From positions 1-21,608 of the IMG/VR virus record IMGVR_UViG_3300017776_000242: a DNA stretch of 21,608 nucleotides, one strand, 5' to 3'. Source of the DNA: a virus. A model generated the notes under the pieces. That model was not told where the DNA came from. It saw nothing but the letters and a program-made list of their open reading frames with translations, and did not search any database. Position 1 is the first letter of the stretch; each line of letters begins with the position of its first letter. The translations under genes and the position numbers were made by a program. Positions 491 through 13,411 of this stretch are shown here, in pieces.

Positions 491-3001
491 ATGAAATTTT
501 ATACCTCAGTATCTCGCTACGGCAATAACCTTCTTTATAGAGGTTATGCTAATGGCAAAAAAATTCAAACAAAAATTAAATACCAACCAACCTATTATGT
601 TAATACAACTAAGGACACTGGTTATCGAGCCTTAGATGGCACAAAGGTTGCGCCTATCAAATTTTCTGATATGCGTGACGCAAAAGAATGGCTTTCAGCA
701 AATCAACATACTGCTGGTCGTCATATCTATGGAAACAATAAACACATTCCCGCTTATATCAATGAAGCATTTCCAGGGAATATCAAATTTGATCGTAATC
801 TTATTAATGTAACTACAATCGATATTGAGGTTCAGTCTGATGCTGGATTTCCAGAGCCTGAAGAAGCGGCTCATGAAGTTACAGCAATATGTATCAAAAA
901 CAATATTGACAAAACTTTTTATGTCTGGGGTCTTAAAGACTATGATGTAGAAAACAGCTACATGCAAGAAAGTCGTGTGGTATATGAAAAATGTTTAACC
1001 GAATCTGAACTTCTACTTAAATTTATCGCGCACTGGGCTTTACCTTCTCATTGTCCAGATGTTATTACTGGTTGGAATTCACGATTCTTTGATATGCCAT
1101 ATCTTATTAATCGTATTATCAAAATTCATGGCGAAGAGTTTGTACGTAGGTTATCACCATGGGGTTTAATTGATCGACGCGACGTTACAACAATGCAACG
1201 CAAACAATGTGCATATGAAATTCAAGGTATTGCCCAAATGGATTACCTTGATCTATTTCGTAAATTTGGTTACTCTTATGGTCCACAAGAATCATATAAG
1301 CTAGATCATATTGCGCATGTTGTTCTTGGTGAACGTAAGCTCTCATATGAAGAACACGGTAACCTACATACTTTATACAAATATGACCATCAAAAATTTA
1401 TTGATTATAATATCAAAGATGTGGATCTTGTAGATCGCTTTGAGGATAAGATGGGTCTTATTACTCTTGCTCTTACTATGGCTTATCGTGGTGGTGTTAA
1501 CTATGGCGATGTTATGGGTACAACTGCAATATGGGATTCTATTATTTTCCGTAATCTCTTTGCTAACAATGTAATTGTTCCCTTTGGCGAAGAAAAGTTT
1601 AAATCACCATATCCTGGTGGTTATGTAAAAGATCCACATGTTGGAATTCATGAATGGGTTGTTTCTTTTGACTTAAACTCGCTGTATCCATCAATCATTA
1701 TGCAGAATAATATGTCACCTGAAACTATTATTAATGGTAAAGTTGCTAATGTTTCGGTTGATACACTTCTTAGTGGCGAGGTAAAACCTAGGCTTGAATC
1801 TAACGAATGCGCTGCAGCTTCAGGCCAATATTTTAAAACTGACACTCAAGGTATTCTTCCAAAAATTATCGATGAAATGTATAGTGAACGCGTTGTCATA
1901 AAAAGACAAATGATTAATTCTCAGCGTGAGCTCGAAAAGGTTGATAAAAAAGATAAGCAAGAATTATATCGAGTCCAAAGGGATATTAACATTGCTGAAA
2001 ACCAGCAAATGTCGATTAAGATTCTTCTAAACAGTCTTTATGGCGCCCTAGGTAACAAGTATTTCAGATTCTTCGATCAACGTATTGCTGAGGGTATTAC
2101 TTTATCTGGCCAATTAACAATTCGTTGGGCTGAAAAGGCAATCAATGAATATCTTAACAAAGTCCTTAAAAGCAATAAAGATTATGTAGTTGCTATTGAT
2201 ACCGATTCTGTTTATGTAGTTCTCGATGATCTTGTTAAAGCTGTCAATCCTAAAAATCCACTTGAATTTGTAAACACTGTCTGCAACGAAAAGCTTGAAA
2301 AAGTCCTTGAAGACAGTTATAACACTTTATTCGAAACCATGGGTGGTATTGAAAATCGAATGGTTATGAAACGTGAAGCTATTGCTAATCGTGGTATATG
2401 GACAGCTAAGAAAAGATATATTCTCAATGTTCTTGATAATGAAGGTGTTCGTTATGCTGAACCTAAACTTAAGATCATGGGTATTGAAGCTATAAAATCT
2501 TCAACTCCAGCTCCATGTCGTGAAGCGTTAAAACAAATGTTTAAAACTATTATTAGTGGTTCAGAATCTGCAGTTCAAAAAGATATTGAATTATTCAGAT
2601 CACATTTTAAAACACTTTCCCCCGATCAAATTGCCTTTCCACGTGGTATAACTAATCTTACAAACTATATGGATAATCAAACCATATACAAAAAAGGTAC
2701 ACCAATTCATGCACGTGGCAGTATTATGTACAATAAACTTCTTGTTGACAAATCACTTCAAAGGCAATATAACAAAATTCAAAATGGTGAAAAGATCAAA
2801 TTCATATATCTTCGAATACCAAACCACATAAAGGAAAATGTTATATCTTTCCTTGATTACCTTCCGGAAGAGTTTGGTTTACATCGATATATTGATTACG
2901 ATACTCAATTTAATAAAACGTTTTTGGATGTAATTGATCCAATACTTTCAGCTATCGGTTGGAACTCTAAGGATGTTGCAACTCTTGATGAATTTTTTTA
3001 A
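491..3001 (+). CDS. 43: Family B replicative DNA polymerase, T4 gp43-like
   Basis: The 836-residue protein is the phage replicase with 3'-5' proofreading. Exonuclease motifs are visible: Exo I D111-x-E113, Exo II around D201 (NSRFFDMPY) and Exo III Y306-x3-D310, lining up with T4 D112/E114, D219 and D324. Polymerase motifs follow: motif A SFDLNSLYPS (D394), motif B KILLNSLYGALGN (510-522), motif C D570-T-D572, then KKRY. It is slightly shorter than T4 gp43 (898 aa). The C-terminus TLDEFF sits where T4/RB69 polymerase carries its gp45 clamp-binding peptide. No Shine-Dalgarno sequence is seen upstream of the ATG, unlike nearly every other gene here. T4 gene 43 is autoregulated at translation, so regulated initiation is possible but not shown. 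The next gene starts after its own promoter. Confidence 0.97.
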   Translation: MKFYTSVSRYGNNLLYRGYANGKKIQTKIKYQPTYYVNTTKDTGYRALDGTKVAPIKFSDMRDAKEWLSANQHTAGRHIYGNNKHIPAYINEAFPGNIKFDRNLINVTTIDIEVQSDAGFPEPEEAAHEVTAICIKNNIDKTFYVWGLKDYDVENSYMQESRVVYEKCLTESELLLKFIAHWALPSHCPDVITGWNSRFFDMPYLINRIIKIHGEEFVRRLSPWGLIDRRDVTTMQRKQCAYEIQGIAQMDYLDLFRKFGYSYGPQESYKLDHIAHVVLGERKLSYEEHGNLHTLYKYDHQKFIDYNIKDVDLVDRFEDKMGLITLALTMAYRGGVNYGDVMGTTAIWDSIIFRNLFANNVIVPFGEEKFKSPYPGGYVKDPHVGIHEWVVSFDLNSLYPSIIMQNNMSPETIINGKVANVSVDTLLSGEVKPRLESNECAAASGQYFKTDTQGILPKIIDEMYSERVVIKRQMINSQRELEKVDKKDKQELYRVQRDINIAENQQMSIKILLNSLYGALGNKYFRFFDQRIAEGITLSGQLTIRWAEKAINEYLNKVLKSNKDYVVAIDTDSVYVVLDDLVKAVNPKNPLEFVNTVCNEKLEKVLEDSYNTLFETMGGIENRMVMKREAIANRGIWTAKKRYILNVLDNEGVRYAEPKLKIMGIEAIKSSTPAPCREALKQMFKTIISGSESAVQKDIELFRSHFKTLSPDQIAFPRGITNLTNYMDNQTIYKKGTPIHARGSIMYNKLLVDKSLQRQYNKIQNGEKIKFIYLRIPNHIKENVISFLDYLPEEFGLHRYIDYDTQFNKTFLDVIDPILSAIGWNSKDVATLDEFF

Positions 3002-3019
3002 AATAAATGAAAAAAACAG

Positions 3020-3048
3020 TTTACAAACACATAAAAATGTGTTATAAT
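3020..3048 (+). promoter_or_regulatory. Sigma70-type promoter for the 3074-5821 unit
   Basis: TTTACA (3020-3025), 17-bp spacer, TATAAT (3043-3048) with extended -10 TGt. The core AATGTGTTATAATATA is shared with the promoter at 5794-5822. It lies in the 72-base gap after gene 43, just upstream of the AAAGGAG site of the next gene. Confidence 0.85.
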
Positions 3049-3073
3049 ATATCTATTATTAAAGGAGATACAA

Positions 3074-3358
3074 ATGTCTATTAAATTAATCAGGCTTACT
3101 TCAGGTGAAGAAGTCTTAGCAAAAATTACTGATGAATCTAATGATTCAATCACATTCGAAAATCCAATCGCGCTTTATGCTGCTGAAGAAGGTAAAATTG
3201 GCTTTATGCCTTATATTCCATATACAAAAGCTGAAGATGGACTAACTGTAAAAAATACTCATGTGCTTTTTACTGTTGATCCTGTAGATCAAATTCTTGG
3301 TCAATACAAAGAAGCGACTGGAGCTATTGTAACACCAAACAAAGGAATTATTGTATGA
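3074..3358 (+). CDS. Small Sm-like (LSm-type) conserved phage protein
   Basis: A 94-residue protein with a strong site (AAAGGAG) before the ATG. The opening SIKLIRLTSGEEVLAKITDES resembles an Sm1 motif (strand, G-E-x-V, strand), and the rest alternates short hydrophobic strands, as in the Sm-like proteins often found near gene 43 in T4-like marine phages. A role in RNA binding would follow from the fold but is not shown. It is the first gene of a transcription unit and its stop overlaps the next start (ATGA at 3355-3358). It could instead be an unrelated small beta-barrel. Confidence 0.65.
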   Translation: MSIKLIRLTSGEEVLAKITDESNDSITFENPIALYAAEEGKIGFMPYIPYTKAEDGLTVKNTHVLFTVDPVDQILGQYKEATGAIVTPNKGIIV

Positions 3359-3756
3359 GCATGAACTGGGTAAATGATATTAAAGATATGCATCATAAGT
3401 ATGGTGTTCATGAATGGGTTAAAAATAATCCAGATAAACTTGAACAGCTGCTTCATTTCCGTGTAGCCTTTCTCAAAGAAGAATTTGATGAAACATTTAA
3501 GGCTGTTGGAGAAAAAGATGCTGAAGAAATTGTTGATGGTCTAATTGATCTTTGCGTTGTAGCTATTGGGACACTTGATCTCATGGGTGTTGACGCTCAT
3601 GAAGCTTGGCATGAAGTAAATAAAGCAAATATGGCTAAAAAAGTTGGCGTAAAAGAATCACGCCCTAATCCATTGGGACTTCCCGATCTAGTAAAACCTG
3701 AAGGTTGGAAAGCTCCATCACACTTAGGTAATCATGGTCTCCTTAACAATATTTGA
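3355..3756 (+). CDS. MazG-like all-alpha NTP pyrophosphatase (candidate dCTPase)
   Basis: A 133-residue, mostly helical protein with the signature of all-alpha NTP pyrophosphatases: E43-F-D-E46 (ExxE) and E58-I-V-D61 (ExxD), followed by a hydrophobic helix (GLIDLCVVAIGTLDLMG) and N-K-A-N-M-A-K-K. Such enzymes hydrolyse a (d)NTP to the monophosphate and pyrophosphate with Mg2+ held by the acidic pairs. T4 gp56 (dCTPase/dUTPase), which keeps plain dCTP out of hydroxymethylcytosine DNA, belongs to this superfamily. Since a dCMP hydroxymethylase is encoded 2.4 kb downstream, a gp56-like job is a reasonable inference, though general dNTP housecleaning is equally possible. The start overlaps the previous stop, with AAAGGA upstream. 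Confidence 0.75.
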   Translation: MSMNWVNDIKDMHHKYGVHEWVKNNPDKLEQLLHFRVAFLKEEFDETFKAVGEKDAEEIVDGLIDLCVVAIGTLDLMGVDAHEAWHEVNKANMAKKVGVKESRPNPLGLPDLVKPEGWKAPSHLGNHGLLNNI

Positions 3757-4651
3757 CAGCATATACGATAATAAAACTACTAAAAGAGTAGACTATAACT
3801 CTTTTGATGATTTTGAAAAAGTTTTATACCGTTTGGCGGAAAGTGATAAGTATCAAAAAAAGACTGATGCTCCTTTAATATCACCGGCCACATATAAGAC
3901 CGAAACCACTCGAGCTAATGCTAATGTATTAAGCTGGGGTGGTTTCGGCATTGTTGATGTAGATGATTATGAAGGTTCTATTGATGATATTCATGAAAAA
4001 TATTCTAAGTACAAATATGTTTGTTACTCAACAGCAAGTTCTACAAAACAACATCCAAAATTCAGATTAGTTTTTCCATTAACTGAACAGGTACCAGCAG
4101 ACAAAATTAAACATTTTTGGTTTGCTCTCAATAAAGAAATAGGAGACATCGCAGATGCCCAAACAAAAGATCTTAGTCGAATGTACTACGTACCTTCAAG
4201 ATACAAAGGTGCATACAACTTCATATTCACTCACAACGGAATCACCATGGATCCGTCAGAACTTATGGAAAGACACAGATACGTTGTACCAAATGAATCG
4301 TTTTTCGATAAGCTACCCGAAGCTATCAGAAATGGAATTGTCGAACACCGAAAAGCTCAGCTTAACAACACTGACTTTTCATGGACAGGATATAAAGACT
4401 GTCCTTTTGTAAACCAAAAACAAGTTGATGAATATAAATCAATAACTGGATCTGGTTGGTATTTACAAATGTACAAGATTATGGTATCTACTGCTGGTAA
4501 CGCAATGCAACGAGGTTATCCAATCTCGGCTCGTGAAGTTGCTTGGATTTGTTCAGACTTGGACAATGAAACTGGTGGTTGGTATGGTAAACGAGATATG
4601 GTAAAAGAAGCAGAAAGAGCAATTGATTTTGTCTTTCGAAATAATATATAG
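3734..4651 (+). CDS. Primase-like protein (archaeo-eukaryotic primase-type domain)
   Basis: A 305-residue protein whose N-terminal half carries motifs like those of AEP-type primases in plasmid and phage replication proteins: GFGIVDVDDY (acidic DVD, 75-77), then YSTASST-x-x-HPKFRLVFPL (98-116, the S-x-H-like motif), then DAQTKDLSRMYYVPS (141-155). The C-terminal ~70 residues are helical (GNAMQRGYPISAREVAWICSDLD), resembling a PriCT-like module. The proposed role is primer synthesis or a related nucleotidyl transfer. T4 uses the unrelated DnaG-type gp61, which is not in this window. The start overlaps the MazG-like gene by 23 bases, with AGG five bases upstream of the ATG. The fold assignment is from motifs only; a Rep-type or inactive domain is possible. 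Confidence 0.65.
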   Translation: MVSLTIFDSIYDNKTTKRVDYNSFDDFEKVLYRLAESDKYQKKTDAPLISPATYKTETTRANANVLSWGGFGIVDVDDYEGSIDDIHEKYSKYKYVCYSTASSTKQHPKFRLVFPLTEQVPADKIKHFWFALNKEIGDIADAQTKDLSRMYYVPSRYKGAYNFIFTHNGITMDPSELMERHRYVVPNESFFDKLPEAIRNGIVEHRKAQLNNTDFSWTGYKDCPFVNQKQVDEYKSITGSGWYLQMYKIMVSTAGNAMQRGYPISAREVAWICSDLDNETGGWYGKRDMVKEAERAIDFVFRNNI

Positions 4652-4660
4652 GAGAAAAAG

Positions 4661-4924
4661 ATGGGTATTAAAATGTTAGGCAGTCAAGTTTTAGTAACGG
4701 CTGTAGAAAAAGAACAAACAACGGCAGGTGGTATTATTCTTACTGGTGATACAACTAAAGGATCTAAGCCAGGTTTAGTTTTATCTGTTGGACCATTAGC
4801 TATTGATCGAGTTGAATCAGGTCAAAGAGTATTTCTTGATTGGAATAAAGCTATGCCAGTCGATTATGAAGGCGAAGCTGCAGCAATTATAGATGTTGAG
4901 TGGATTAAGGCGGTGATTTCATAA
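4661..4924 (+). CDS. groES: GroES-like co-chaperonin (functional analogue of T4 gp31)
   Basis: An 87-residue protein with the GroES layout: N-terminal strand (KMLGSQVLVTAVEKE), the mobile GroEL-binding loop with TTAGGIILTGDTTKGSKPG (about 20-38), the LVLSVGP strand, then GQRVFLDWNKAM and the closing IDVEWIKAVI strand. It should cap host GroEL, as T4 gp31 does to help fold the major capsid protein. Unlike gp31, which is hard to align with GroES, this one reads as GroES directly, closer to bacterial cpn10. A strong AGGAG lies eight bases before the ATG. The stop overlaps the next start (TAATG), so translation is probably coupled. Confidence 0.88.
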   Translation: MGIKMLGSQVLVTAVEKEQTTAGGIILTGDTTKGSKPGLVLSVGPLAIDRVESGQRVFLDWNKAMPVDYEGEAAAIIDVEWIKAVIS

Positions 4925-5346
4925 TGTATACTTATAACGTTGAAGTGGTAAGAGTTGTTGATGGTGATACTGTTGATGTAGATATTGACTTAGGTTTTGG
5001 AATGGTCTATAAAAAACAACGTGTTAGAATGATGGGTATTGATACTCCAGAATCCAGAACTCGTGATCTTGAAGAAAAATTTTATGGTTTAGAATCTAAA
5101 AAATTCTTAAAAACACTATTGTTGGATTGTCCTGTAACTTTAATATCCCATGACAAAGGCAAGTTTGGTAGAATTTTAGGAGAGTTATATATTTATGGAA
5201 ACTTTGATAGATCAGTAAATAAAATGATGATTGATAACTTTCGCGCAGTTCCATATTATGGTGATTCAAAAGACCTTACAGAAGAACATCATTTGTCTAA
5301 TAGAAAAGCTTTAAACGAGCAAGGTATTGTATATGACCCCGATTAG
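4924..5346 (+). CDS. Staphylococcal-nuclease-like (thermonuclease) endonuclease
   Basis: A 140-residue SNase-fold protein: VVRVVDGDTVDVDIDLGFG (first strands, catalytic Asp near 13), RVRMMGIDTPESR (Arg35, Asp40, Glu43) and KGKFGRILGELYI (Arg83). These match the Ca2+-dependent SNase catalytic set Arg35/Asp40/Glu43/Arg87. No signal peptide is seen, so it should act inside the infected cell, perhaps in host DNA breakdown or DNA processing. It starts on the stop of the GroES gene and its end overlaps a predicted PD-(D/E)XK protein, so two putative nucleases are translated as neighbours. Confidence 0.88.
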   Translation: MYTYNVEVVRVVDGDTVDVDIDLGFGMVYKKQRVRMMGIDTPESRTRDLEEKFYGLESKKFLKTLLLDCPVTLISHDKGKFGRILGELYIYGNFDRSVNKMMIDNFRAVPYYGDSKDLTEEHHLSNRKALNEQGIVYDPD

Positions 5347-5821
5347 TGAATTAATTGATCGAATAAATAATCACACATATATTGTTGACCAGTGGTTATT
5401 AGATGCTTTAGAAGAAGAGTATCAAAAAGGATCTTATAGTAATAGAAATAATGTTGAAGCGCTTGCTTTAGAATTTACTCTTTATAAAGCCGGTGGATTT
5501 AAAAGACCAAAGACTTGGAGACACGATCTTGAATTATCTGATTCTATTTTTGTAGATCTTAAACGTAGACCAAAATGGTCAGATAATATTTCTCTTTCAG
5601 CTAAAGGACGATTAGAAGAGTCTTATGAAATGGGACAACTGACTCATATTGTTGGATATACTCAAAATATTGAAAGTAATTATAAAATTGGAGATATTCT
5701 TAAATTTAATGTAGATGGATTTTTACCAGTAATGAAAGCACTAAACGAGTCACAAACTAAAATGCGAAGTTATAAATTACTTAATAAAAAACGTTTACAA
5801 ACACTCCAAAATGTGTTATAA
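5333..5821 (+). CDS. Predicted PD-(D/E)XK nuclease-like protein
   Basis: A 162-residue protein counted from ATG 5333, chosen because AAGG (5321-5324) is correctly spaced; an in-frame TTG at 5327 is less likely. The pattern E-ALALEFTLYKAGGFK, then RHDLELSDSIFVDLKRR, resembles the core of PD-(D/E)XK nucleases (helix Glu, Asp, then D-L-K). This is a motif-level inference. The last ten codons lie inside the promoter at 5794-5822, and the TAA stop is part of its -10 box, giving a tail KRLQTLQNVL that reflects promoter sequence more than protein need. The start overlaps the SNase gene by 14 bases. Confidence 0.55.
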   Translation: MTPISELIDRINNHTYIVDQWLLDALEEEYQKGSYSNRNNVEALALEFTLYKAGGFKRPKTWRHDLELSDSIFVDLKRRPKWSDNISLSAKGRLEESYEMGQLTHIVGYTQNIESNYKIGDILKFNVDGFLPVMKALNESQTKMRSYKLLNKKRLQTLQNVL

Positions 5822-5822
5822 T
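5794..5822 (+). promoter_or_regulatory. Sigma70-type promoter embedded in the end of a CDS
   Basis: TTTACA (5794-5799), 17-bp spacer, TATAAT (5817-5822), extended -10 TGt. The -10 box contains the TAA stop of the upstream gene. It drives the nucleotide-metabolism group beginning at 5848. Confidence 0.85.
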
Positions 5823-5847
5823 ATACGTATTAAACAAAGGATAACAC

Positions 5848-6156
5848 ATGGCTAAATTTGACGAAAACAAAACACCACTTGGCTTAATACCACCAGAAGC
5901 ATTAGCTCAAATTGCTGATGTCTTTGGCTTTGGTGCTGAAAAGTATGGTGTAAACAATTGGCGTTATGATGGCGACTCAACCAGCTGGATTCGAACATAT
6001 TCATCTGTTCAGCGACATCTTAATGCATGGCATTCTAGTATTGACAATGACGATGAATCTGGTATGACTCATCTTGCGCATGCAGCGACTCAAATCATGA
6101 TTCTCATGACACATGCTATTGAACATCCAGAAGTCGATGATAGGTACAAAAAATGA
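5848..6156 (+). CDS. dATP/dGTP diphosphohydrolase N-terminal-like protein
   Basis: The 102-residue protein matches a phage family that I recall as the dATP/dGTP diphosphohydrolase N-terminal domain: KTPLGLIPPEALAQIADVFGFGAEKYGVNNWR (8-39), then RHLNAWHSS...DDESGMTHLAHAATQI (56-83). The E/H/D residues in the second block probably bind metal. The family is helical and MazG-like, converting a dNTP to dNMP and pyrophosphate. Here it directly precedes, and overlaps by four bases (ATGA), the dCMP hydroxymethylase gene, so a dNTP-pool role such as supplying dCMP from dCTP is attractive but unproven. AAAGGA lies ahead of the ATG. This is the second candidate pyrophosphatase in the window. Confidence 0.8.
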   Translation: MAKFDENKTPLGLIPPEALAQIADVFGFGAEKYGVNNWRYDGDSTSWIRTYSSVQRHLNAWHSSIDNDDESGMTHLAHAATQIMILMTHAIEHPEVDDRYKK

Positions 6157-6803
6157 AAATAAGTGATATAAGAAATCATTTTCGTAATGAATTATTAAAT
6201 AAAAATTTTACAACTGATCGTAATGGCAGTAAAACTATTGAATTGCTTGGTGCATCTTTCCATGCTACTGAACCAGCAATCTTTGGTAAACCAAACCAAG
6301 AATATATTGATGCTGAAATATCATGGTATGAGTCTCAATCAACAAACATTAACGATATTTACGTTGATAGAGATCCACCTAAAGCTTGGCAAATGACAGC
6401 AAATCGTCATGGTGAAATTAATTCTAATTATGGTCATCTCATCTGGAGTGAACAATATCATAATCAGTTTAATTCAGTTGTTAATGAACTAAGAACCAAA
6501 CCTGACTCGCGTAGAGCATCGATGATTTATACTCGTCCAAGTATATGGGTCGAATATAATGATCAAAACAAAAATGATTTTATTTGTACTAATTCGGTGA
6601 CATACTATATTCGAGATGATGAATTACATTGTGTAGTACAAATGAGATCAAACGATGTTATATTTGGCTATCGTAATGATTATGCATGGCAAGAATATGT
6701 TCTTTGCGCATTGGCTGATGAACTTGGCGTTAATGATGGTGATATGTACTGGCAAGTACAGAATTTACATGTCTATGAAAGACATTTTGATTTGGTGAAA
6801 TAA
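6153..6803 (+). CDS. 42: Deoxycytidylate (dCMP) hydroxymethylase, T4 gp42-like
   Basis: A thymidylate-synthase-fold enzyme that makes 5-hydroxymethyl-dCMP from dCMP and methylenetetrahydrofolate. It closely follows T4 gp42: EIxWYxSxS near 55-63, GEINSNYGHLIWSE (87-100), PDSRRASMIYTRPS (117-130), NDFICTNSVTY (141-151) with catalytic Cys145, and VVQMRSNDVIFGYRNDYAWQ (161-180). Cys145 and Asp176 are both offset by three from T4 Cys148 and Asp179. That Asp replaces the Asn of thymidylate synthases and selects cytosine over uracil, so the enzyme should act on dCMP. At 216 residues it is about 30 shorter than T4 gp42, ending at LHVYERHFDLV. It overlaps both neighbours, which are also nucleotide enzymes. 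It implies 5hmC in the phage DNA. Confidence 0.93.
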   Translation: MKISDIRNHFRNELLNKNFTTDRNGSKTIELLGASFHATEPAIFGKPNQEYIDAEISWYESQSTNINDIYVDRDPPKAWQMTANRHGEINSNYGHLIWSEQYHNQFNSVVNELRTKPDSRRASMIYTRPSIWVEYNDQNKNDFICTNSVTYYIRDDELHCVVQMRSNDVIFGYRNDYAWQEYVLCALADELGVNDGDMYWQVQNLHVYERHFDLVK

Positions 6804-7267
6804 TGAACGATTGGGGAATATCAAAAACTTATAAATGGGATAAGCGATATCTTGAATTAGCTCGACATATCGCGTCTTGGTCTAAAGATCCATCTCGTAA
6901 AATTGGAGCTGTTGCTGTAGGAACTAAAGGACAGGTTTTAGCTCAAGGTTATAATGGATTTCCACGTGGAATTGACGATAAAGATTCTATGTACAATAAT
7001 AAAATTACTAAATATGAAAGGGTCGTTCATGCTGAAATGAACTGTATATATAATGCTACATATAACGGCACTTCATTAGATGGATCAACAATGTATATTC
7101 ACGGATTACCAGTTTGTTCTGAATGCGCTAAAGGTATTATACAAGTTGGTGTAACAAGAGTTGTAACATCAGAAATAGATGATTCAATGCCAGAACGATG
7201 GGTTGAATCTACAGTATTAACTAGAAAACTGTTTGAAGAGGCAGGAATTATTTATGACTTCATTTAA
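6803..7267 (+). CDS. cd: dCMP deaminase
   Basis: The 154-residue zinc deaminase has H76-A-E78 (zinc ligand and catalytic Glu) and PVCSEC (Cys105, Cys108) as remaining zinc ligands. It has the dCMP-deaminase-type N-terminal block SKDPSRKIGAVAVG and QGYNGFPRGIDD. It converts dCMP to dUMP, feeding dTMP synthesis, here presumably by the ThyX encoded at 16617-17276. Hydroxymethylase and deaminase thus compete for dCMP, and adjacency (TAATG overlap) would keep them in proportion. The motif has PVC rather than the usual PC before the first zinc Cys. An extra zinc site as in T4 deaminase is not obvious. Confidence 0.9.
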   Translation: MNDWGISKTYKWDKRYLELARHIASWSKDPSRKIGAVAVGTKGQVLAQGYNGFPRGIDDKDSMYNNKITKYERVVHAEMNCIYNATYNGTSLDGSTMYIHGLPVCSECAKGIIQVGVTRVVTSEIDDSMPERWVESTVLTRKLFEEAGIIYDFI

Positions 7268-7562
7268 AAAAGACAGGTTTGACTTAGAGCAAGCGATCAT
7301 GAATGCATGGGCAACATCTGAAGATCTAGATCTCGTATATCATAATACAGATAACTTAATTTTAAATCCTAAAGATTGTGATACATTACAAAATCAAATG
7401 CTTGGATTAAAATATATATTTGAATTACGAATGGAAAAAGTTTGGAGCATCTTTGAAGAGATGATCAAAACCGAACAATTTAAAGAACACGATGCGCTTA
7501 CGGCTGATACTAGCTGGAAAGCTTTTGACGACTGGAAGAAACAACAGGATCCAGCTCAATAA
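7254..7562 (+). CDS. Conserved T4-like phage protein of unknown function
   Basis: 102 residues from ATG 7254, chosen because AGGA (7243-7246) sits seven bases upstream; an in-frame TTG at 7233 has no site. The sequence is mostly helical and acidic: DLEQAIMNAWATSEDLDLVY, then a middle helix (NQMLGLKYIFELRMEKVWSIFEEMI). I recognise this pattern from many T4-like marine phages, where it is an unnamed protein near replication or nucleotide genes. No catalytic motif is seen. It overlaps the end of the deaminase gene by 14 bases and is followed within ten bases by the tRNA. Confidence 0.75.
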   Translation: MTSFKKDRFDLEQAIMNAWATSEDLDLVYHNTDNLILNPKDCDTLQNQMLGLKYIFELRMEKVWSIFEEMIKTEQFKEHDALTADTSWKAFDDWKKQQDPAQ

Positions 7563-7568
7563 GAATTT

Positions 7569-7645
<77 letters not shown>

Positions 7646-7659
7646 AATAAAGAGTTGAA

Positions 7660-7803
7660 ATGAAACGTACAAATGGTATATGGTTATTAAGAGGAATACT
7701 ACTAATATGGCTAGCATTTTCCATCAAAAATACCGACGATTTATATGGAGTAAGATATAGTATGAGAATAATTAATGAATGTAAAATCGTAAAAGGAGAA
7801 TGA
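7660..7803 (+). CDS. 47-residue predicted membrane peptide
   Basis: A short ORF immediately after the tRNA. It has a basic start (MKRTNG) and a hydrophobic stretch IWLLRGILLIWLAFSI, followed by a polar, mixed-charge end. One membrane segment is likely, positive side in. The upstream site is weak (AAAGAG), so expression is uncertain. Its last codons carry the AAAGGAGA ribosome site of the next gene, and its TGA stop ends two bases before that gene's ATG. No family is recognised. Confidence 0.5.
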   Translation: MKRTNGIWLLRGILLIWLAFSIKNTDDLYGVRYSMRIINECKIVKGE

Positions 7804-7804
7804 T

Positions 7805-7990
7805 ATGTTATATAGCGGATATATGTTTGAAATTAATCAATGTGGATTAATTATGTCGGACAAAGATGGAGATATGATCCAATTAAAAAATACACCATTA
7901 GAAATTGGAGATTCATTTACTCTACAACTAACACAAGATGGTCGTTTATTTTTTAAACGTACGGATATAAGAGAAGAACTAGATGAGTAA
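7805..7990 (+). CDS. Hypothetical 61-residue protein
   Basis: Starts at ATG 7805 with a strong AAAGGAGA site. The predicted protein is short-strand rich (YMFEINQCGLIMSDKDGDMI, FTLQLTQDGRLFFKR), suggesting a small beta-sheet fold, and ends in an acidic tail. I do not recognise the family. Its end overlaps the next gene by eight bases, consistent with coupled translation. Confidence 0.65.
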   Translation: MLYSGYMFEINQCGLIMSDKDGDMIQLKNTPLEIGDSFTLQLTQDGRLFFKRTDIREELDE

Positions 7991-8165
7991 CTGGCATGGT
8001 GGCAAAGGTAGTAAACAAAGACCTACCGACAACAAAAAATACCAAGATAACTGGGATGATATTTTCGGTAAAAAAGATAAACCAAGCGCAGTAGATGATT
8101 GCGCCACAACCAAGGAAGAAAGTGCAGCTAATGAAATTAAAAAAAGAAATCAAAAGAATGACTAA
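7983..8165 (+). CDS. Small conserved phage protein with N-terminal WHGGKGSKQRP motif
   Basis: A 60-residue, highly charged protein opening with MSNWHGGKGSKQRPTDNKKY, then DNWDDIFGK. This GGKGxxxRP...WDxIFG pattern is one I recall from short unnamed proteins in many tailed phages. It has no membrane segment and the rest looks disordered. Function is unknown. It overlaps the previous gene by eight bases and the next one by eight, or more if the next gene starts further upstream. Confidence 0.65.
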   Translation: MSNWHGGKGSKQRPTDNKKYQDNWDDIFGKKDKPSAVDDCATTKEESAANEIKKRNQKND

Positions 8166-8412
8166 AGAGTTTACAACCCCTAAATATACAATCGATTGGT
8201 ATGTTAAATGGGCAGCTTCTGTAATTGTTCTTTGCGCAATGTCTATTAGAGGCATTGATGGACTACAAATGTGGGATCTTGTTCTATCAGCAATCGGTAT
8301 CGCATTGTGGTTATGGGTTTCTATCTTATGGAAAGATAGAGCTTTAATACTACTTAACGGGGTTGGATTAATGTTTTTGTTTAAAAATATTATGACTTCC
8401 CTTTACATTTAG
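8158..8412 (+). CDS. Predicted small inner-membrane protein
   Basis: From ATG 8158 the protein is 84 residues. In-frame ATGs at 8131 and 8095 would give 93 or 105 residues; the shorter form is preferred because it begins near the stop of the upstream gene, but no start has a convincing ribosome site. There are two or three hydrophobic segments: YVKWAASVIVLCAMSI, MWDLVLSAIGIALWLWVSIL and ALILLNGVGLMFLF. The central piece (DLVLSAIGIALWLWV...WKDRALI) resembles small membrane proteins of T4-like marine phages. The -35 box of the ino1 promoter lies in its last codons. Function is unknown. Confidence 0.6.
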   Translation: MTKEFTTPKYTIDWYVKWAASVIVLCAMSIRGIDGLQMWDLVLSAIGIALWLWVSILWKDRALILLNGVGLMFLFKNIMTSLYI

Positions 8413-8430
8413 TGAAAAATGTATTATAAT
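8402..8430 (+). promoter_or_regulatory. Sigma70-type promoter for the inositol/modification operon
   Basis: TTTACA (8402-8407), 17-bp spacer, TATAAT (8425-8430), then ATACATTATAACTATTA. Unlike the other strong copies it lacks TGn directly before the -10. AATGTA (8418-8423) and TACATT (8432-8437) form inverted arms around the -10, a possible operator. It is the only promoter seen before the five genes 8524-13411. Confidence 0.75.
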
Positions 8431-8461
8431 ATACATTATAACTATTAATATGATTAACAAA

Positions 8462-8495
8462 AGTGAGCTACTCTGATCCAGTCAAATGTCTCACT
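8462..8495 (+). other. Leader hairpin upstream of ino1
   Basis: AGTGAG (8462-8467) can pair with CTCACT (8490-8495) around a 22-base loop that itself holds a short ACT/AGT pairing. It falls in the roughly 85-base untranslated leader between promoter and ino1, 24 bases before the AAAGGAG site. It could be a regulatory or stabilising structure; chance pairing cannot be excluded. Confidence 0.3.
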
Positions 8496-8523
8496 ATAAT
8501 AAACTGATATAAAGGAGAAAATT

Positions 8524-9804
8524 ATGTCAAAAATAAATATCGCCATCGCGGGCGTAGGTAATTGTTCATCGGCACTTGTGCAAGGCGTTCAATATTATAT
8601 AGAAAAACCAGAAGATAAAATTGGCCTGATGTTTGAAGACATTGGTGGCTATTCAGCTGAGAATTTTAACTTCGTCGTTGGATTTGACGTTGATTCACGT
8701 AAAGTTGGTCAACGGTTAAATAAAGCAATTTATGCTAAACCAAATTGTAACATGGAAGTATTTCCTCCAGGTCACGATATGAGCTGTATTGCTAATGAGT
8801 CTACAGTATTCAGATCTCCAACTATGGACGGGATTGCTCCTCATATGAATGAGCTTGATGAAAATGTTACATTCCTAGAGGACAATAAAACCACACCAAT
8901 TACAGCATCTGAATATAGAAAAATTCTTAAAGATCGCAAAGTTGATGTATTACTTAATTATATGCCAGTAGGAGCTGAAGAAGCTGCAGCATGGCACATT
9001 GAAAATGCTATTAAGGCTGGTGTTCATGTTGTAAACTGTATGCCAACTTATATTTCTACAAAAGATGCTATGGAATTAGAGCAATTGGCTATTGACAATG
9101 GTGTAACAATTGTTGGCTCTGATATGAGATCTGATTATGGCGCATCACGTTTATCTGAAGTTCTTCAAGGATCTATTATGGATTCTGGCCTTTTGGTTAC
9201 ACAACACATTCAAGAAAATAAAGCTTGTGGTACAACCCAAGGTGATATGCGTAGGATTGGTAGAACAGCAAATACTGATTTCTTAAATATGGCAACAAAA
9301 GATCGTTTGAAAAATAAGCATATTTCAAAAGAGAATGTACTTAATGGCCAAGCTACAGTTCGTGGTAAAGATATCGCAGGACTTACAATGTATGCTGGTC
9401 CATCACTTACAGTTTTCCAAAAGCCAGGTGGTGAATATATTGGATCTGATAATAAAATTGCAAATATCGATATGGTATTTTGGGGTTGGGCTGGCGCTCG
9501 TTATGAGCTAACCGCTCGTTTATCAGTTCAGGATTCTCCAAATAGTGCTGGTATCGTGTATGATGCTATTAGATTCTGTAAAGTTGCTTCTGAAATGGGA
9601 ATTGTTGGTTACTTACGTGGACCATCAGCTTGGTCACAAAAGACTCCACCTGAGCAGCTTAAAACTGCAGATGCTAAATTTGAATGTGATGCATTGGCTC
9701 GTAGAGTTTTAACTGATAAAACAACTCCTCAACTTAAAGAAAATAATCCTAAAGTTGAAGATCTAACTTATACATTCCAATCAGGTGAAAACGATTATGC
9801 CTAA
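8524..9804 (+). CDS. ino1: myo-Inositol-1-phosphate synthase (Ino1)
   Basis: The 426-residue enzyme would convert glucose 6-phosphate to myo-inositol phosphate using NAD as a recycled cofactor. It is close to the bacterial/archaeal Ino1 type: INIAIAGVGNCSSALVQGV (Rossmann NAD site, 4-22), VVGFDVDSRKVG, VDVLLNYMPVGAEEA, INCMP-like VVNCMPTYIST, GSDMRSDYGAS, DFLNMATKDRLKNKHISK and the hallmark QDSPNSAGIVYDAI. It ends like actinobacterial Ino1 at PSAW...KTPPEQL, but with about 35 further residues and extra internal inserts. All expected blocks are present, so it is probably active. AAAGGAG precedes the ATG. Very unusual in a phage; it heads an operon with a HAD phosphatase and predicted DNA-modification proteins. 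Confidence 0.93.
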   Translation: MSKINIAIAGVGNCSSALVQGVQYYIEKPEDKIGLMFEDIGGYSAENFNFVVGFDVDSRKVGQRLNKAIYAKPNCNMEVFPPGHDMSCIANESTVFRSPTMDGIAPHMNELDENVTFLEDNKTTPITASEYRKILKDRKVDVLLNYMPVGAEEAAAWHIENAIKAGVHVVNCMPTYISTKDAMELEQLAIDNGVTIVGSDMRSDYGASRLSEVLQGSIMDSGLLVTQHIQENKACGTTQGDMRRIGRTANTDFLNMATKDRLKNKHISKENVLNGQATVRGKDIAGLTMYAGPSLTVFQKPGGEYIGSDNKIANIDMVFWGWAGARYELTARLSVQDSPNSAGIVYDAIRFCKVASEMGIVGYLRGPSAWSQKTPPEQLKTADAKFECDALARRVLTDKTTPQLKENNPKVEDLTYTFQSGENDYA

Positions 9805-10174
9805 GCAATTAATTAATACATTTGATATTGATGGAGTAATTTATTTCGGCGAGGACGTAACTGGTGTGCGTCCTGGCCGTGATGATGTTATTATTACCGG
9901 AAGGTCGTATCAACAAGAGCTTGATACCATTGTTATGCTAAAATCTCGTGATATACATAATCATGTAATGTTTAATCCTTTAAAGCGAAGTGATGATGCT
10001 TATAGCAGAAAAGCTTCAGGTATTCATAAAGCTAAATGTATCACAAAGCTTAAAGAATCATTTAAGATTGGACTACACTTTGAGGACGATCCTATTCAAA
10101 TTGAAGAAATTAAAAAGGTTCATCCAGAATTAAATATAATCCACTTAGTCAGAGAGGGTCTCATTGGCTACTAA
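9797..10174 (+). CDS. Small HAD-superfamily phosphatase-like protein
   Basis: 125 residues from ATG 9797, which has AGGTG upstream; an in-frame GTG at 9785 would add four residues. HAD motifs in order: FDIDGVI (nucleophile Asp10 and general acid Asp12), TGRS (34-37), Lys78/Lys80, and HFEDDP (95-99). There is no cap domain and no membrane segment. HAD enzymes use a phospho-aspartate to remove phosphate from small substrates. Its gene overlaps ino1 by eight bases, so inositol phosphate is an obvious candidate substrate, but a nucleotidase or polynucleotide phosphatase is equally possible from sequence. It overlaps the next gene by 11 bases. Confidence 0.8.
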   Translation: MPKQLINTFDIDGVIYFGEDVTGVRPGRDDVIITGRSYQQELDTIVMLKSRDIHNHVMFNPLKRSDDAYSRKASGIHKAKCITKLKESFKIGLHFEDDPIQIEEIKKVHPELNIIHLVREGLIGY

Positions 10175-11228
10175 TTCTTATAATTATGATTGGTGGTCAT
10201 TTGATAAAGACCTTATGCTTGACTTCAATCATTTCTTAAAAAAGATTAACGATCGTGCAGCTATTCATCAAGGTTTTACTAATGATCAATATGAAAATCT
10301 AAATCGTCATGGTGTAATTGACCATGGCTTAGGTGAGAACGTTGAATATTTTCATCCTACGATTACCTTAGATGATCGTATGAGATTTATTGGTACTGAA
10401 ATTGCTACATCTCGAATGAGCGATACTAATATTGTTGGTAACACGATTATATCTCACTTTTATGGGGCTCGTGGAGTTCACTGGATAGTATCAGGAAAGG
10501 AAGGAACCTTTGTTGATTTTGATCGAATTGCAGATGGCGATGATGACTATATTAAGTTTCTACGTAATAACATCGATAAAGCTATAAGAAATAAACAACC
10601 TATCTGGGGAACGACTGAGTTACACACATCGATTCAAACTGCTGGTAGAAACTATTGTCGTAAAAAATATAATGATCCAGATCGTAAGTTTCATCCAGTT
10701 GACGTAAGTGAATGGGTTGCTTCTTTCAGAGATACTAAAATCATTGAAGGTATGCTAGCTGCTAAAGATCTTTTTGAAGTGTTTACTTTATTAAGAACTT
10801 TACCAGGAGTTGGTGAATATTATGGATTCCATTGTGCAACTTCAACATCTGTTTTACCTCAAATGAAATATCATCATGATCAAAGGTTTGTTGCGCCAGG
10901 ACCAGGAGCAGTTTATACGATAAAATTACTTTGGCCAGATGTTCCTAATAAATATCTAGCTGAAGCAATTTATTTTATAAGAGAAAACGCAGCTGAAATT
11001 GGTTTGACTAAGGATGTTACGTTCCATGAATCAGCATATAATATTGAATTAGACAATGGTTCACATTTATTTAAAGAACAACAGAATGGATTAAAGTACT
11101 ACGGTACTGAGGTTCTATGTTGCCAGTATGGTGTATATCTACAAATAAGAGATGACGAAAAGGCCTGTGGAAGACGTCAAGTTGCTAGAGCTAAGACGCC
11201 TCAAAACACATTAACTGAGTTTTTTTAA
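10164..11228 (+). CDS. Alpha-glutamyl/putrescinyl thymine pyrophosphorylase-like DNA-modification protein
   Basis: 354 residues if TTG 10164 is the start, supported by AGAGAGGG (10150-10157) six bases upstream; the next ATG is at 10215. The central block has the helix-hairpin-helix signature LRTLPGVGEYYGFHCATST (LPGVG), then a D-Q-R-F-V-A-P-G-P-G-A stretch. This order (LPGVG, Asp, PGPGA) is what I recall for the DNA-glycosylase-like aGPT-pyrophosphorylase families proposed to attach groups to hydroxymethylated pyrimidines in phage DNA. The family's PWT N-terminal motif is not seen, so this is a divergent member. The tail TLTEFF resembles the polymerase's clamp peptide. A glycosylase with another role is the main alternative. 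Confidence 0.6.
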   Translation: MATNSYNYDWWSFDKDLMLDFNHFLKKINDRAAIHQGFTNDQYENLNRHGVIDHGLGENVEYFHPTITLDDRMRFIGTEIATSRMSDTNIVGNTIISHFYGARGVHWIVSGKEGTFVDFDRIADGDDDYIKFLRNNIDKAIRNKQPIWGTTELHTSIQTAGRNYCRKKYNDPDRKFHPVDVSEWVASFRDTKIIEGMLAAKDLFEVFTLLRTLPGVGEYYGFHCATSTSVLPQMKYHHDQRFVAPGPGAVYTIKLLWPDVPNKYLAEAIYFIRENAAEIGLTKDVTFHESAYNIELDNGSHLFKEQQNGLKYYGTEVLCCQYGVYLQIRDDEKACGRRQVARAKTPQNTLTEFF

Positions 11229-11229
11229 G

Positions 11230-12219
11230 ATGAAAAATATAATCAACTGCCCATTTATTCCAATAGCAAAACGTCATGCATCTCACCGAGGAGCTCAAGG
11301 CGTTATCTATGGAGATATGATTAAGGAAAAATATGGAAACTGCGATGTCAACTATGGTGGAGAAATTACAGATCATAATGCTTATGATAATCTCTGGGTT
11401 TATCATGGCAGTGATTATAGCGGCGGTCTTAATATGTTTGGTGGCGTTTATGGTTTCCCATACGTTGCTAACACTGTTAACTTTTCTAAATTTAAAGGTC
11501 AAGTCTATTCTATAGGTATGGATTTTCCTCCATATCATGAAATGATTAAAAGTAAATTAGATGCTGCTAAACGAGACGTTCAGCCTGAATGGCATCAGGT
11601 TGACTTAAAAAATCTTAAAAGAATGCATGACACAGCAATTAGAGTTGATTATCCTAATCCAACAGATAAAGTTATTATTGGTGATAGTCATTCAATATGT
11701 ATGTATCGTCCAGGTTGGACTGTTAATAGCGTTCCATTTAAAACCTTAAATGGCGCATTGAAACAAGGATTCAAAACATTTATTCCGCCAACAGGATATA
11801 AAGAACTTCATTGTTATTTTGGTAACATTGATGTGCGTCATCATATTATTAGATTAGAAGCAAGTATTATTGATTTGGCTGATAGATACATGGAAGAAGC
11901 TAGTAAATTTGACGCTAAGATATATGAACTATTGCCAATTGAACATGAATCAAGAAAGATCCCACAATCTGGATATCATAAAGGTAAACCATTCTGGGGT
12001 TCATGGCATGAAAGAACAGATATTCGTAATCAATTTAACGATTACATTGAAAAGGAATACGGCATCATAAGATGGACCGATAAATTAATGAATAAGGCTG
12101 GTGAGCTTGATTTTAAATATATGGAAAAGCCAAAATCAATTCATCTGTCAAGAGAGTTTTATCCATATTGGAATGGAATCGAAACTAAAATAACAAATAC
12201 ACTTGAGGAATTTTTCTAA
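11230..12219 (+). CDS. SGNH/GDSL-like domain protein in DNA-modification operon
   Basis: A 329-residue protein. The C-terminal two thirds carries SGNH-hydrolase blocks: IGDSHS (catalytic Ser), NGALKQG (Gly), YFGNIDVRHHI (Asn/Asp, similar to GEIDxRxH forms), and KSIHLSREFYPYW (His) near the end. The N-terminal ~110 residues (HASHRGAQGVIYGDMIKEKYG, then YDNLWVYHGSDYSGGLNMFGG) may be a separate domain and faintly recall the N-terminal half of phage beta-glucosyltransferases; this is weak. The family cleaves or transfers acyl groups, often on sugars. It ends in TLEEFF. It starts two bases after the previous stop with no clear ribosome site, so coupled translation is likely. The target is unknown. 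Confidence 0.6.
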   Translation: MKNIINCPFIPIAKRHASHRGAQGVIYGDMIKEKYGNCDVNYGGEITDHNAYDNLWVYHGSDYSGGLNMFGGVYGFPYVANTVNFSKFKGQVYSIGMDFPPYHEMIKSKLDAAKRDVQPEWHQVDLKNLKRMHDTAIRVDYPNPTDKVIIGDSHSICMYRPGWTVNSVPFKTLNGALKQGFKTFIPPTGYKELHCYFGNIDVRHHIIRLEASIIDLADRYMEEASKFDAKIYELLPIEHESRKIPQSGYHKGKPFWGSWHERTDIRNQFNDYIEKEYGIIRWTDKLMNKAGELDFKYMEKPKSIHLSREFYPYWNGIETKITNTLEEFF

Positions 12220-12220
12220 T

Positions 12221-13411
12221 ATGACTACATGGGCAAGCATTGTACCATTGATTGGTGGTGAGACCATCGCAATGGAAAACGTTTTTAAAACTAAACCAAA
12301 ATATTTTTTAACATTTGATGGATTTCAAGCAAATGAAGAACATTTGAGAAACTATTACAATAATGAGATTCCATATTTGAATTTGTCAAATGGTGATAAG
12401 CATACTGAAAGCGTTGATGTTGTAAATACAGTATGTCCATGTGCTGGTCTAAGTTCTTTAAGTCCTTCTGCTTCAAGCAATAATCCAGCAAATGATTGGA
12501 TGATTAAATCAGCAGAATATGTTTTAAGTGAAATGTCGCCAAAGGTATTTTGGGGAGAAAACGCTCCAAGACTAGCATCAAAAATGGGTGAACCAGTTGT
12601 AAGAAGATTACGTAAAATTGCTGAAGACAATGGTTATACATTTAGTATTTTTAAAACAAAATCTTTATTACATGGATTGAGTCAAGTTAGAGATCGAACA
12701 TTTTATTTCTTTTGGAAAGACAATACTGTTCCATTATTTGACTATATTGAAGTTCCACCAACAATGATTGCAGATGATATTAGATCTGTAGTGAATGACC
12801 CATCTGATGAAATGAGTCAAATTTTATGTAATGATAAAACTCCATCAGAAGATCCATATTATAAGTATATCTTAGAAGAACTCGAAGGTGGAATTACCCA
12901 CAAAGAGTTTGCAGCTAAGATTGAAAAGACCACAAATGTTCAAGATTATATTGAAGAACATACAACCTATAACAAGGTTGCTGAGTGGATGCGAGCAAAT
13001 GGATACGATAATGTAGCTCGTAAATGCGATAGAGCTTATCACAAGCTCAAAGCAGGTGGTAATATTATGCGTAAAGGCGTTGAAATTCCAAAGGATAAAA
13101 TTGGAGCTTTCGTAGGTCATATGCCAACAAGCATAACACATCCAGACGAAGATAGATTTTTAACAGTAAGAGAATCTATGTCTTTGATGAAATTGCCAAA
13201 TGACTATAAATTAGTGAATCCTAAAAGATCACTAAATCATATATGTCAAAATGTACCTGTAACCACAGCCGAACATCCAGCAGCTATGGTTAAAAAGTAT
13301 CTTGAGGGAAAACTTGATTCAATAGATACTGATTATATGGTACAAGATAATAAGAAAAAAACCTATGAATTTGTAAAAAACAGTTTACAATTGACTGAAT
13401 TTATGATATAA
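12221..13411 (+). CDS. DNA (cytosine-5) methyltransferase
   Basis: 396 residues from ATG 12221, one base after the previous stop, with GAGGA (12205-12209) upstream. Motif order is that of C5 methyltransferases: ASIVPLIGGETIAMENV (motif I-like), TFDGFQANEEH (II), VNTVCPCAGLSSLSP (IV, catalytic Cys74), WGENAPRL (VI, ENA at 113-115), LHGLSQVRDRTFYFFW (VIII), a target-recognition region around 170-300, TVRESMSLMKLPNDY (IX, 315-329) and ICQNVPVTTA (X, 341-350). Motif IV reads CPCAGLS instead of PPCQGFS, a divergence at the active loop. It should methylate cytosine in a short site. A C5 enzyme is unexpected in a phage making hydroxymethylcytosine, where most sites would be blocked. The last 11 codons and the stop lie in the next promoter. 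Confidence 0.88.
   Translation: MTTWASIVPLIGGETIAMENVFKTKPKYFLTFDGFQANEEHLRNYYNNEIPYLNLSNGDKHTESVDVVNTVCPCAGLSSLSPSASSNNPANDWMIKSAEYVLSEMSPKVFWGENAPRLASKMGEPVVRRLRKIAEDNGYTFSIFKTKSLLHGLSQVRDRTFYFFWKDNTVPLFDYIEVPPTMIADDIRSVVNDPSDEMSQILCNDKTPSEDPYYKYILEELEGGITHKEFAAKIEKTTNVQDYIEEHTTYNKVAEWMRANGYDNVARKCDRAYHKLKAGGNIMRKGVEIPKDKIGAFVGHMPTSITHPDEDRFLTVRESMSLMKLPNDYKLVNPKRSLNHICQNVPVTTAEHPAAMVKKYLEGKLDSIDTDYMVQDNKKKTYEFVKNSLQLTEFMI

Follow-up and report, generated by a model that had tools for sequence, protein, structure and literature searches.

In bacteriophage T4, short peptides at the C-termini of the DNA polymerase gp43, the late sigma factor gp55 and gp33 bind the sliding clamp gp45, and these epitopes are freely interchangeable (PMC2988020). 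T4 alpha-glucosyltransferase also binds gp45, whereas beta-glucosyltransferase (BGT) does not (PMC13216743). Marking of phage DNA has to precede attack by host nucleases, which raises the question of how it keeps up with replication; in T4, one glucosyltransferase is known to interact with the clamp, and how much this matters is disputed. We analyzed a 21,608-nucleotide stretch of viral DNA (IMG/VR record IMGVR_UViG_3300017776_000242, positions 1–21,608; hereafter the window), in which gp43 and three predicted DNA-modification proteins end in a shared short peptide. We conclude, with a probability of about 0.84, that this peptide is a sliding-clamp-binding tail, a portable motif that would tether DNA-modifying enzymes to gp45 and so couple modification to replication.

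The four genes whose products carry the tail are as follows.

491–3001, + strand: gp43, family B DNA polymerase (Pfam DNA_pol_B, E = 1.1e-32); tail TLDEFF at 2981–2998, final codons ACT CTT GAT GAA TTT TTT TAA (2981–3001).
10164–11228, + strand: HMUDK/'aGPT'-like DNA-modification protein (Pfam HMUDK_hel, E = 6.2e-9); tail TLTEFF at 11208–11225 on a disordered linker, final codons ACA TTA ACT GAG TTT TTT TAA (11208–11228).
11230–12219, + strand: protein with an apparent BGT-like N-terminal region and an SGNH-hydrolase-like domain (hereafter the SGNH protein); tail TLEEFF at 12199–12216, final codons ACA CTT GAG GAA TTT TTC TAA (12199–12219).
12221–13411, + strand: C5-cytosine DNA methyltransferase homologue (Pfam DNA_methylase, E = 5.5e-15, obtained with the open reading frame (ORF) from 12203); tail QLTEFMI at 13388–13408.

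An initial annotation of this DNA had described the first three tails, each directly before its stop codon and each with a different choice of codons; both descriptions proved correct to the base. It had not listed the fourth, in the methyltransferase adjoining the SGNH gene, which ends LQLTEFMI and is conserved too. All four are short hydrophobic-acidic peptides that lie at the C-terminus or no more than a few residues from it.

To describe the tail, we used a strict motif, [TSN][LI]xxF[FLM] followed by 0–2 residues at the C-terminus. It was derived from gp43 tails alone and was thus not fitted to the other proteins. In the window, three of 27 ORFs matched it, as compared with 0.06 in shuffled tails (binomial P ~6e-7, based on how often the pattern occurs internally). 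In a larger set of 681 ORFs, comprising four relatives' contigs (97–128 kb) and 138 kb of phage C48C1, there were 14 matches against 0.40 expected from the internal frequency (binomial P ~2e-17). We therefore rejected a chance origin of the tails on the basis of both the shuffled tails and this probability. The 14 matches were four gp43 proteins, three aGPT-like proteins, two SGNH proteins, two C5-methyltransferases, an adenine methylase, a TET dioxygenase and a 140-amino acid protein; that is, 13 of them were gp43 or DNA-acting modification enzymes. A looser form of the motif gave 12–16 matches per large contig with 5–8 expected, and because of this background we left it out of our claims. 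The 140-amino acid protein (contig G002, L137:16039–16461), which belongs to no known family and has the strict tail SSIETFFQ, is by the same rule a candidate DNA-acting enzyme.

Among named phages, C48C1 is the closest relative as judged by gp43 (51% identity); it yielded no match to either the aGPT-like or the SGNH protein when searched for them. Scanned blind with the strict motif, however, 3 of its 166 ORFs matched (0.05 expected), and these were exactly gp43 (TLEDFFG), a D12-class N6-adenine methylase (STLDAFFG) and a Tet_JBP dioxygenase (SLEEFFV). The motif is kept in IMG/VR orthologues of these enzymes, namely in 37 of 37 distinct adenine-methylase tails and in all intact TET tails, and the TET protein of Stenotrophomonas phage DLP_6 also has a tail (ATLGDFFV). 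At the level of sequence, C48C1 thus represents an independent replication of the link between motif and modification enzymes. The tail also offers a simple sequence rule for finding new DNA-modification enzymes, as the blind recovery of the methylase and the dioxygenase illustrates.

By the initial annotation's own criterion, loss of the tails from orthologues of the aGPT-like and SGNH proteins would have refuted its clamp-binding reading. We collected orthologous loci from IMG/VR and two Aeromonas phages and scored their tails for [LIV]xx[FLW] and then a hydrophobic residue, close to the C-terminus. The motif was kept in all 43 distinct aGPT-like tails, all 47 SGNH tails and 30 of 31 methyltransferase tails, the lone exception being a frame-shifted end. 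One Aeromonas fusion tail (SLDGLFAI), in which Leu replaces the first Phe, was counted under both the aGPT-like and the SGNH proteins. When distinct 180-nucleotide 3′ ends from IMG/VR were counted instead, the motif was present in 68/68 aGPT-like, 64/64 SGNH, 57/57 gp43 and 53/54 methyltransferase ends, the exception again being frame-shifted. The Leu and the first Phe are nearly invariant, even though Leu is written with up to six codons (in gp43, for example) and Phe with both of its codons. By contrast, the linker ahead of the motif is poorly conserved, as judged by entropy, and its length varies over more than 20 residues in the SGNH family. Fixed residues, varying codons and a divergent linker together mark a short linear motif under selection as a peptide, in agreement with what the initial annotation had argued from codon choice. 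AlphaFold models are consistent with a flexible attachment: in the aGPT-like protein (predicted local distance difference test (pLDDT) 88), residues 343–354 have a pLDDT below 50 and a terminal mini-helix spans 350–353, and in the SGNH protein (pLDDT 80), residues 300–329 are of low confidence, with a terminal helix at 325–328.

The same class of peptide is found on the phages' own predicted clamp clients, gp43 (TLDEFF) and gp55 (KLELFMV). The gp55 proteins of the relatives end in KLELFM (KLELFMV) or SSLEMFL, save for two more distant relatives. As a positive control, a relaxed motif recovered the T4 tails of gp43 (SLDFLFG), gp55 (SLDFLYEAND) and gp33 (TLDFLL). Like the T4 and RB69 epitopes, the tails described here are short hydrophobic-acidic peptides at the extreme C-terminus after a flexible linker; they differ in consensus, L-x-[DE]-F-[FLM] as compared with L-D-F-L in T4, and in being present also on DNA-modification enzymes. 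The clamp itself, which the initial annotation had proposed to locate, is encoded by relatives. The near relative G005, whose gp43 is 90% identical, has a gp45 (L149:3057–3719, − strand) that matches RB69 gp45 (the sequence of PDB entries 1b77/1b8h) over its full length (E = 5.5e-20), and ten other relatives also encode gp45.

The tailed enzymes of the window belong to a cassette with conserved gene order, gp42-MIPS-HAD-aGPT-SGNH-C5MT (6153–13411), the first three genes of which encode the following proteins.

6153–6803, + strand: T4 gp42-type dCMP hydroxymethylase, making the hydroxymethylcytosine precursor (Pfam Thymidylat_synt); no clamp tail.
8524–9804, + strand: myo-inositol-1-phosphate synthase (MIPS) homologue (Pfam Inos-1-P_synth, E = 2e-7); no clamp tail.
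9785–10174, + strand: short HAD-like/polynucleotide-kinase-like phosphatase (PHROG 415 polynucleotide kinase, E = 2.6e-6), a conserved neighbor; no clamp tail.

The gp42-type and MIPS proteins, which act at the level of the precursor, serve as an internal control: they lack the tail that the enzymes acting on DNA carry, and this is the split that a clamp tether predicts.

These observations lend support to the reading of the initial annotation, that the modification enzymes ride on the clamp. The reading is based on the presence, conservation and specificity of the motif, the flexible linker and the gp45 of the relatives, from which we infer that the tails bind gp45, compete with gp43 and gp55 for its pockets and place the enzymes just behind the fork. 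The tail consists of a flexible linker and a peptide of the form [T/S/N/Q/K/G]-L-x-[acidic]-F-[F/L/M] that ends within ~3 residues of the stop codon. In the phage family of the window, its carriers are gp43 and gp55 together with three modification enzymes, namely the HMUDK-like protein, the BGT/SGNH protein and the C5-methyltransferase; in the related C48C1, they are gp43, the N6-adenine methylase and the TET dioxygenase. In the proposed mechanism, the tail would dock in a hydrophobic pocket on the ring formed by the phage's own gp45. This ring stays on newly made duplex DNA, so that tethered enzymes would slide with the clamp, becoming locally concentrated and processive a short distance behind the fork, and fresh DNA would be modified soon after its synthesis, before host nucleases meet it. 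Thus, the DNA-modifying enzymes of these marine T4-type phages probably follow the fork, marking DNA during its synthesis. Like T4 alpha-glucosyltransferase, whose interaction with gp45 was reportedly described by Sommer in 2004, they would pair a DNA-modifying phage enzyme with the phage clamp in a proposed replication-linked modification, with binding shown for alpha-glucosyltransferase and predicted here; the enzymes themselves are unrelated to it. A parallel exists in eukaryotes, in which DNMT1 is recruited by PCNA through a PIP box, so that a clamp-binding peptide brings a base modifier to newly replicated DNA. There is no homology between DNMT1 and the phage tails, and the PIP box of DNMT1 is N-terminal and serves maintenance methylation. 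With these tails, the 'tool-belt' view of sliding clamps, familiar from PCNA and DNMT1, would nevertheless come to include base hypermodification in phages.

Several observations weigh against this interpretation. The window fragment itself does not contain gp45. T4 alpha-glucosyltransferase, a gp45 binder, has no obvious tail of this kind (its end is FKEQFDIITK), and clamp binding has been judged not to be the main cause of the dominance of alpha-glucosylation (the alpha/beta ratio) in T4 (PMC13216743). The tail is also missing from the Dam proteins of cyanophages Syn19 and P-SSM4, the C5-methyltransferase of S-TIM5, T4 Dam and T4 BGT, although T4-type phages have gp45; as the cyanophage Dam proteins stop before the tail, it is an add-on and is not obligatory. 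Finally, a baseplate-hub-like protein has a loosely similar LxxFF end, and the loose motif is thus no proof of clamp binding.

Binding to gp45 could serve another purpose. T4 gp45 is also an activator of late transcription (PMC2988020), and gp55 of these phages carries the same motif; the tails might therefore act mainly in late-transcription coupling or in regulating the access of gp43 and gp55 to the clamp, rather than in modification beside the fork. We consider this improbable, because the carriers are five families of DNA-modifying enzymes with no link to RNA polymerase, and because the cassette has gp43, UvsX and gp41 as neighbors in the replication region. It is also quite improbable that the tails bind a different partner that accepts the same peptide, such as the host beta clamp, the clamp loader or another replisome protein. 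Such a partner is conceivable insofar as gp45 binding is deduced from sequence, and the methyltransferase variant, QLTEFM, is faintly reminiscent of beta-clamp motifs in bacteria. However, the same peptide ends gp43 and gp55, whose T4 counterparts bind gp45, the relatives encode gp45, and the tail is absent from TET and adenine-methylase homologues of small phages (32–37 kb; 32–36 kb for those with TET), including a P2-like adenine methylase.

Conservation within each family would also be expected if the tails were ordinary structural C-termini that pack on their own protein core and resemble each other by convergence, without a common partner. This is very unlikely, given that the motif stays unchanged behind a linker whose length varies by more than 20 residues, the tails are disordered in the models, homologues such as cyanophage Dam stop short of the tail, and five unrelated families share it. 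A last alternative, that nucleotide constraints or chance produced the match, stems from a caveat in the initial annotation about one element of the SGNH gene.

12205–12209, + strand: GAGGA within the SGNH tail, likely ribosome-binding site of the methyltransferase gene (ATG at 12221).

The caveat is fair for this tail, and such constraints (a Shine-Dalgarno (SD) GAGGA in the tail, start-stop overlaps) do operate in its family: GGAG or GAGG occurs in 45 of 59 SGNH ends that have a close downstream gene, and Phe codon choice is narrow at one position. They fail to explain the motif, which is kept where no gene follows closely and SD-like sequence is rare (methyltransferase, 1/44; aGPT-like, 1/21; adenine methylase, 0/10 and 2/24). 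We therefore rejected the ribosome site as the cause of the tails, and with the chance probability given above this alternative becomes extremely unlikely. Replication-coupled marking by way of the clamp remains our preferred explanation, and a conserved, transplantable six-residue tail on several enzymes makes it directly testable.

We then considered the identities of the enzymes and the chemistry of the operon. The window gp42-type protein shares the GFRNDYAWQ (GYRNDYAWQ) block of T4 gp42, with Asp where thymidylate synthase has Asn; the phage DNA thus probably contains hydroxymethylcytosine, and the operon is the probable source of it. The aGPT-like protein resembles the 5-hydroxymethyldeoxyuridine (5-hmdU) DNA kinase/'aGPT-Pplase' family (PF18723): the HMUDK helical domain is recognized in 28 of 28 orthologues, and its AlphaFold model matches the phage 31 fusion protein and the SP10 5-hmdU DNA kinase (E = 2e-5, TM 0.58), indicative of an SP10 kinase fold. 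The hydroxymethylase of this genome is of the dCMP rather than the dUMP type, and for this reason the substrate, unlike that of the SP10 enzyme, is more likely to be 5-hydroxymethylcytosine than 5-hydroxymethyluracil.

The SGNH protein has no Pfam match above the cut-off. Both the sequence and the predicted fold of its N-terminal region are similar to those of T4 BGT: the Pfam model PF09198 is matched by 12 of 34 family members (best E = 6e-5), hhalign gives P = 7.6e-5, and T4 BGT is the top Foldseek match (E = 2.5e-3). The similarity covers the N-terminal 60–70 residues, and the window protein scores 13.9 bits against a curated cut-off of 27. The second half has the SGNH-hydrolase motifs GDSH and GNID in place of the BGT sugar-nucleotide domain. 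The product of 11230–12219 thus appears to be a BGT-like N-terminal region fused to an SGNH-hydrolase-like domain, so that the original label 'SGNH-like' holds for the latter and needs refining for the former; as noted above, T4 BGT itself does not bind gp45. Sequence searches of the PDB gave nothing convincing for the aGPT-like or SGNH proteins, and Foldseek against the PDB weakly matched PaMx11 PUGT (E = 0.68). For the C5-methyltransferase, we rejected an assignment as a CmoX-type carboxymethyltransferase, as Gln aligns at SpCmoX position 350, where Arg is required (PMC12783734). As a whole, the conserved operon from the gp42-type gene to the C5-methyltransferase (6153–13411) is suggestive of an as yet undescribed hypermodification of hydroxymethylcytosine that may involve inositol.

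T4 already provides examples of clamp tails and of one DNA-modification enzyme that binds the clamp. As far as searches of the open-access literature show, a common predicted clamp tail at the C-terminus of five unrelated modification enzyme families, and the sequence rule that it provides, are new. We give even odds to a broader proposal, in which clamp-tethering is a general organizing principle of hypermodification in the T4 superfamily: at least five unrelated enzymes would have independently acquired the polymerase tail, forming a replication-coupled 'modification factory' on gp45; the tail would predict DNA-modifying enzymes; and in the phage of the window, a three-enzyme system tethered in this way would make a new derivative of hydroxymethylcytosine that might carry inositol or inositol phosphate.

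Named phages show related arrangements. A single 795-amino acid polypeptide in Aeromonas phages 44RR and 31 combines the SGNH and aGPT-like proteins and ends CSLDGLFAI, so that the two tails of the marine phages become one. SGNH proteins of Tulanevirus end NTLELFDI, and gp43 of the Aeromonas 44RR/31 group and of Tulanevirus ends NNLFDMFDI; in these examples the tail resembles the clamp clients of its own phage lineage. The 44RR fusion ORF (L173:36831–39218) adjoins a sodium:solute symporter (L173:39288–40811), which could supply the modification with imported sugar or inositol. The Tulanevirus SGNH gene lies downstream of genes for UDP-galactopyranose mutase and a 358-amino acid protein, perhaps a glycosyltransferase (Aeromonas phage 25, L179:1776–3957; the same genes in phiAS4, L178:1775–3957), hinting at a galactofuranose-type DNA modification.

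Other C-terminal peptides were observed as well. The carboxymethylation enzymes CmoA and CmoX of cyanophage S-B43 have no tail of the kind described above. Its amide ligase CmoY (L169:47774–48589) ends GTLPL and its late-transcription coactivator gp33 (L170:44793–45062) ends KLPL; LP[LI] is kept in all CmoY orthologues, and this end is possibly another type of clamp tail. T4 DNA ligase gp30 (L174:6842–8305) ends NTFEDVFGDFHEVTGL, in which the stretch TFEDVFG recalls the clamp motif. In the window, the gp41-like helicase ends DTFAEFKV (16412–16435), and its relatives end [TS]F[AS][DEN]FK[VIL], a second, distinct conserved C-terminal peptide.

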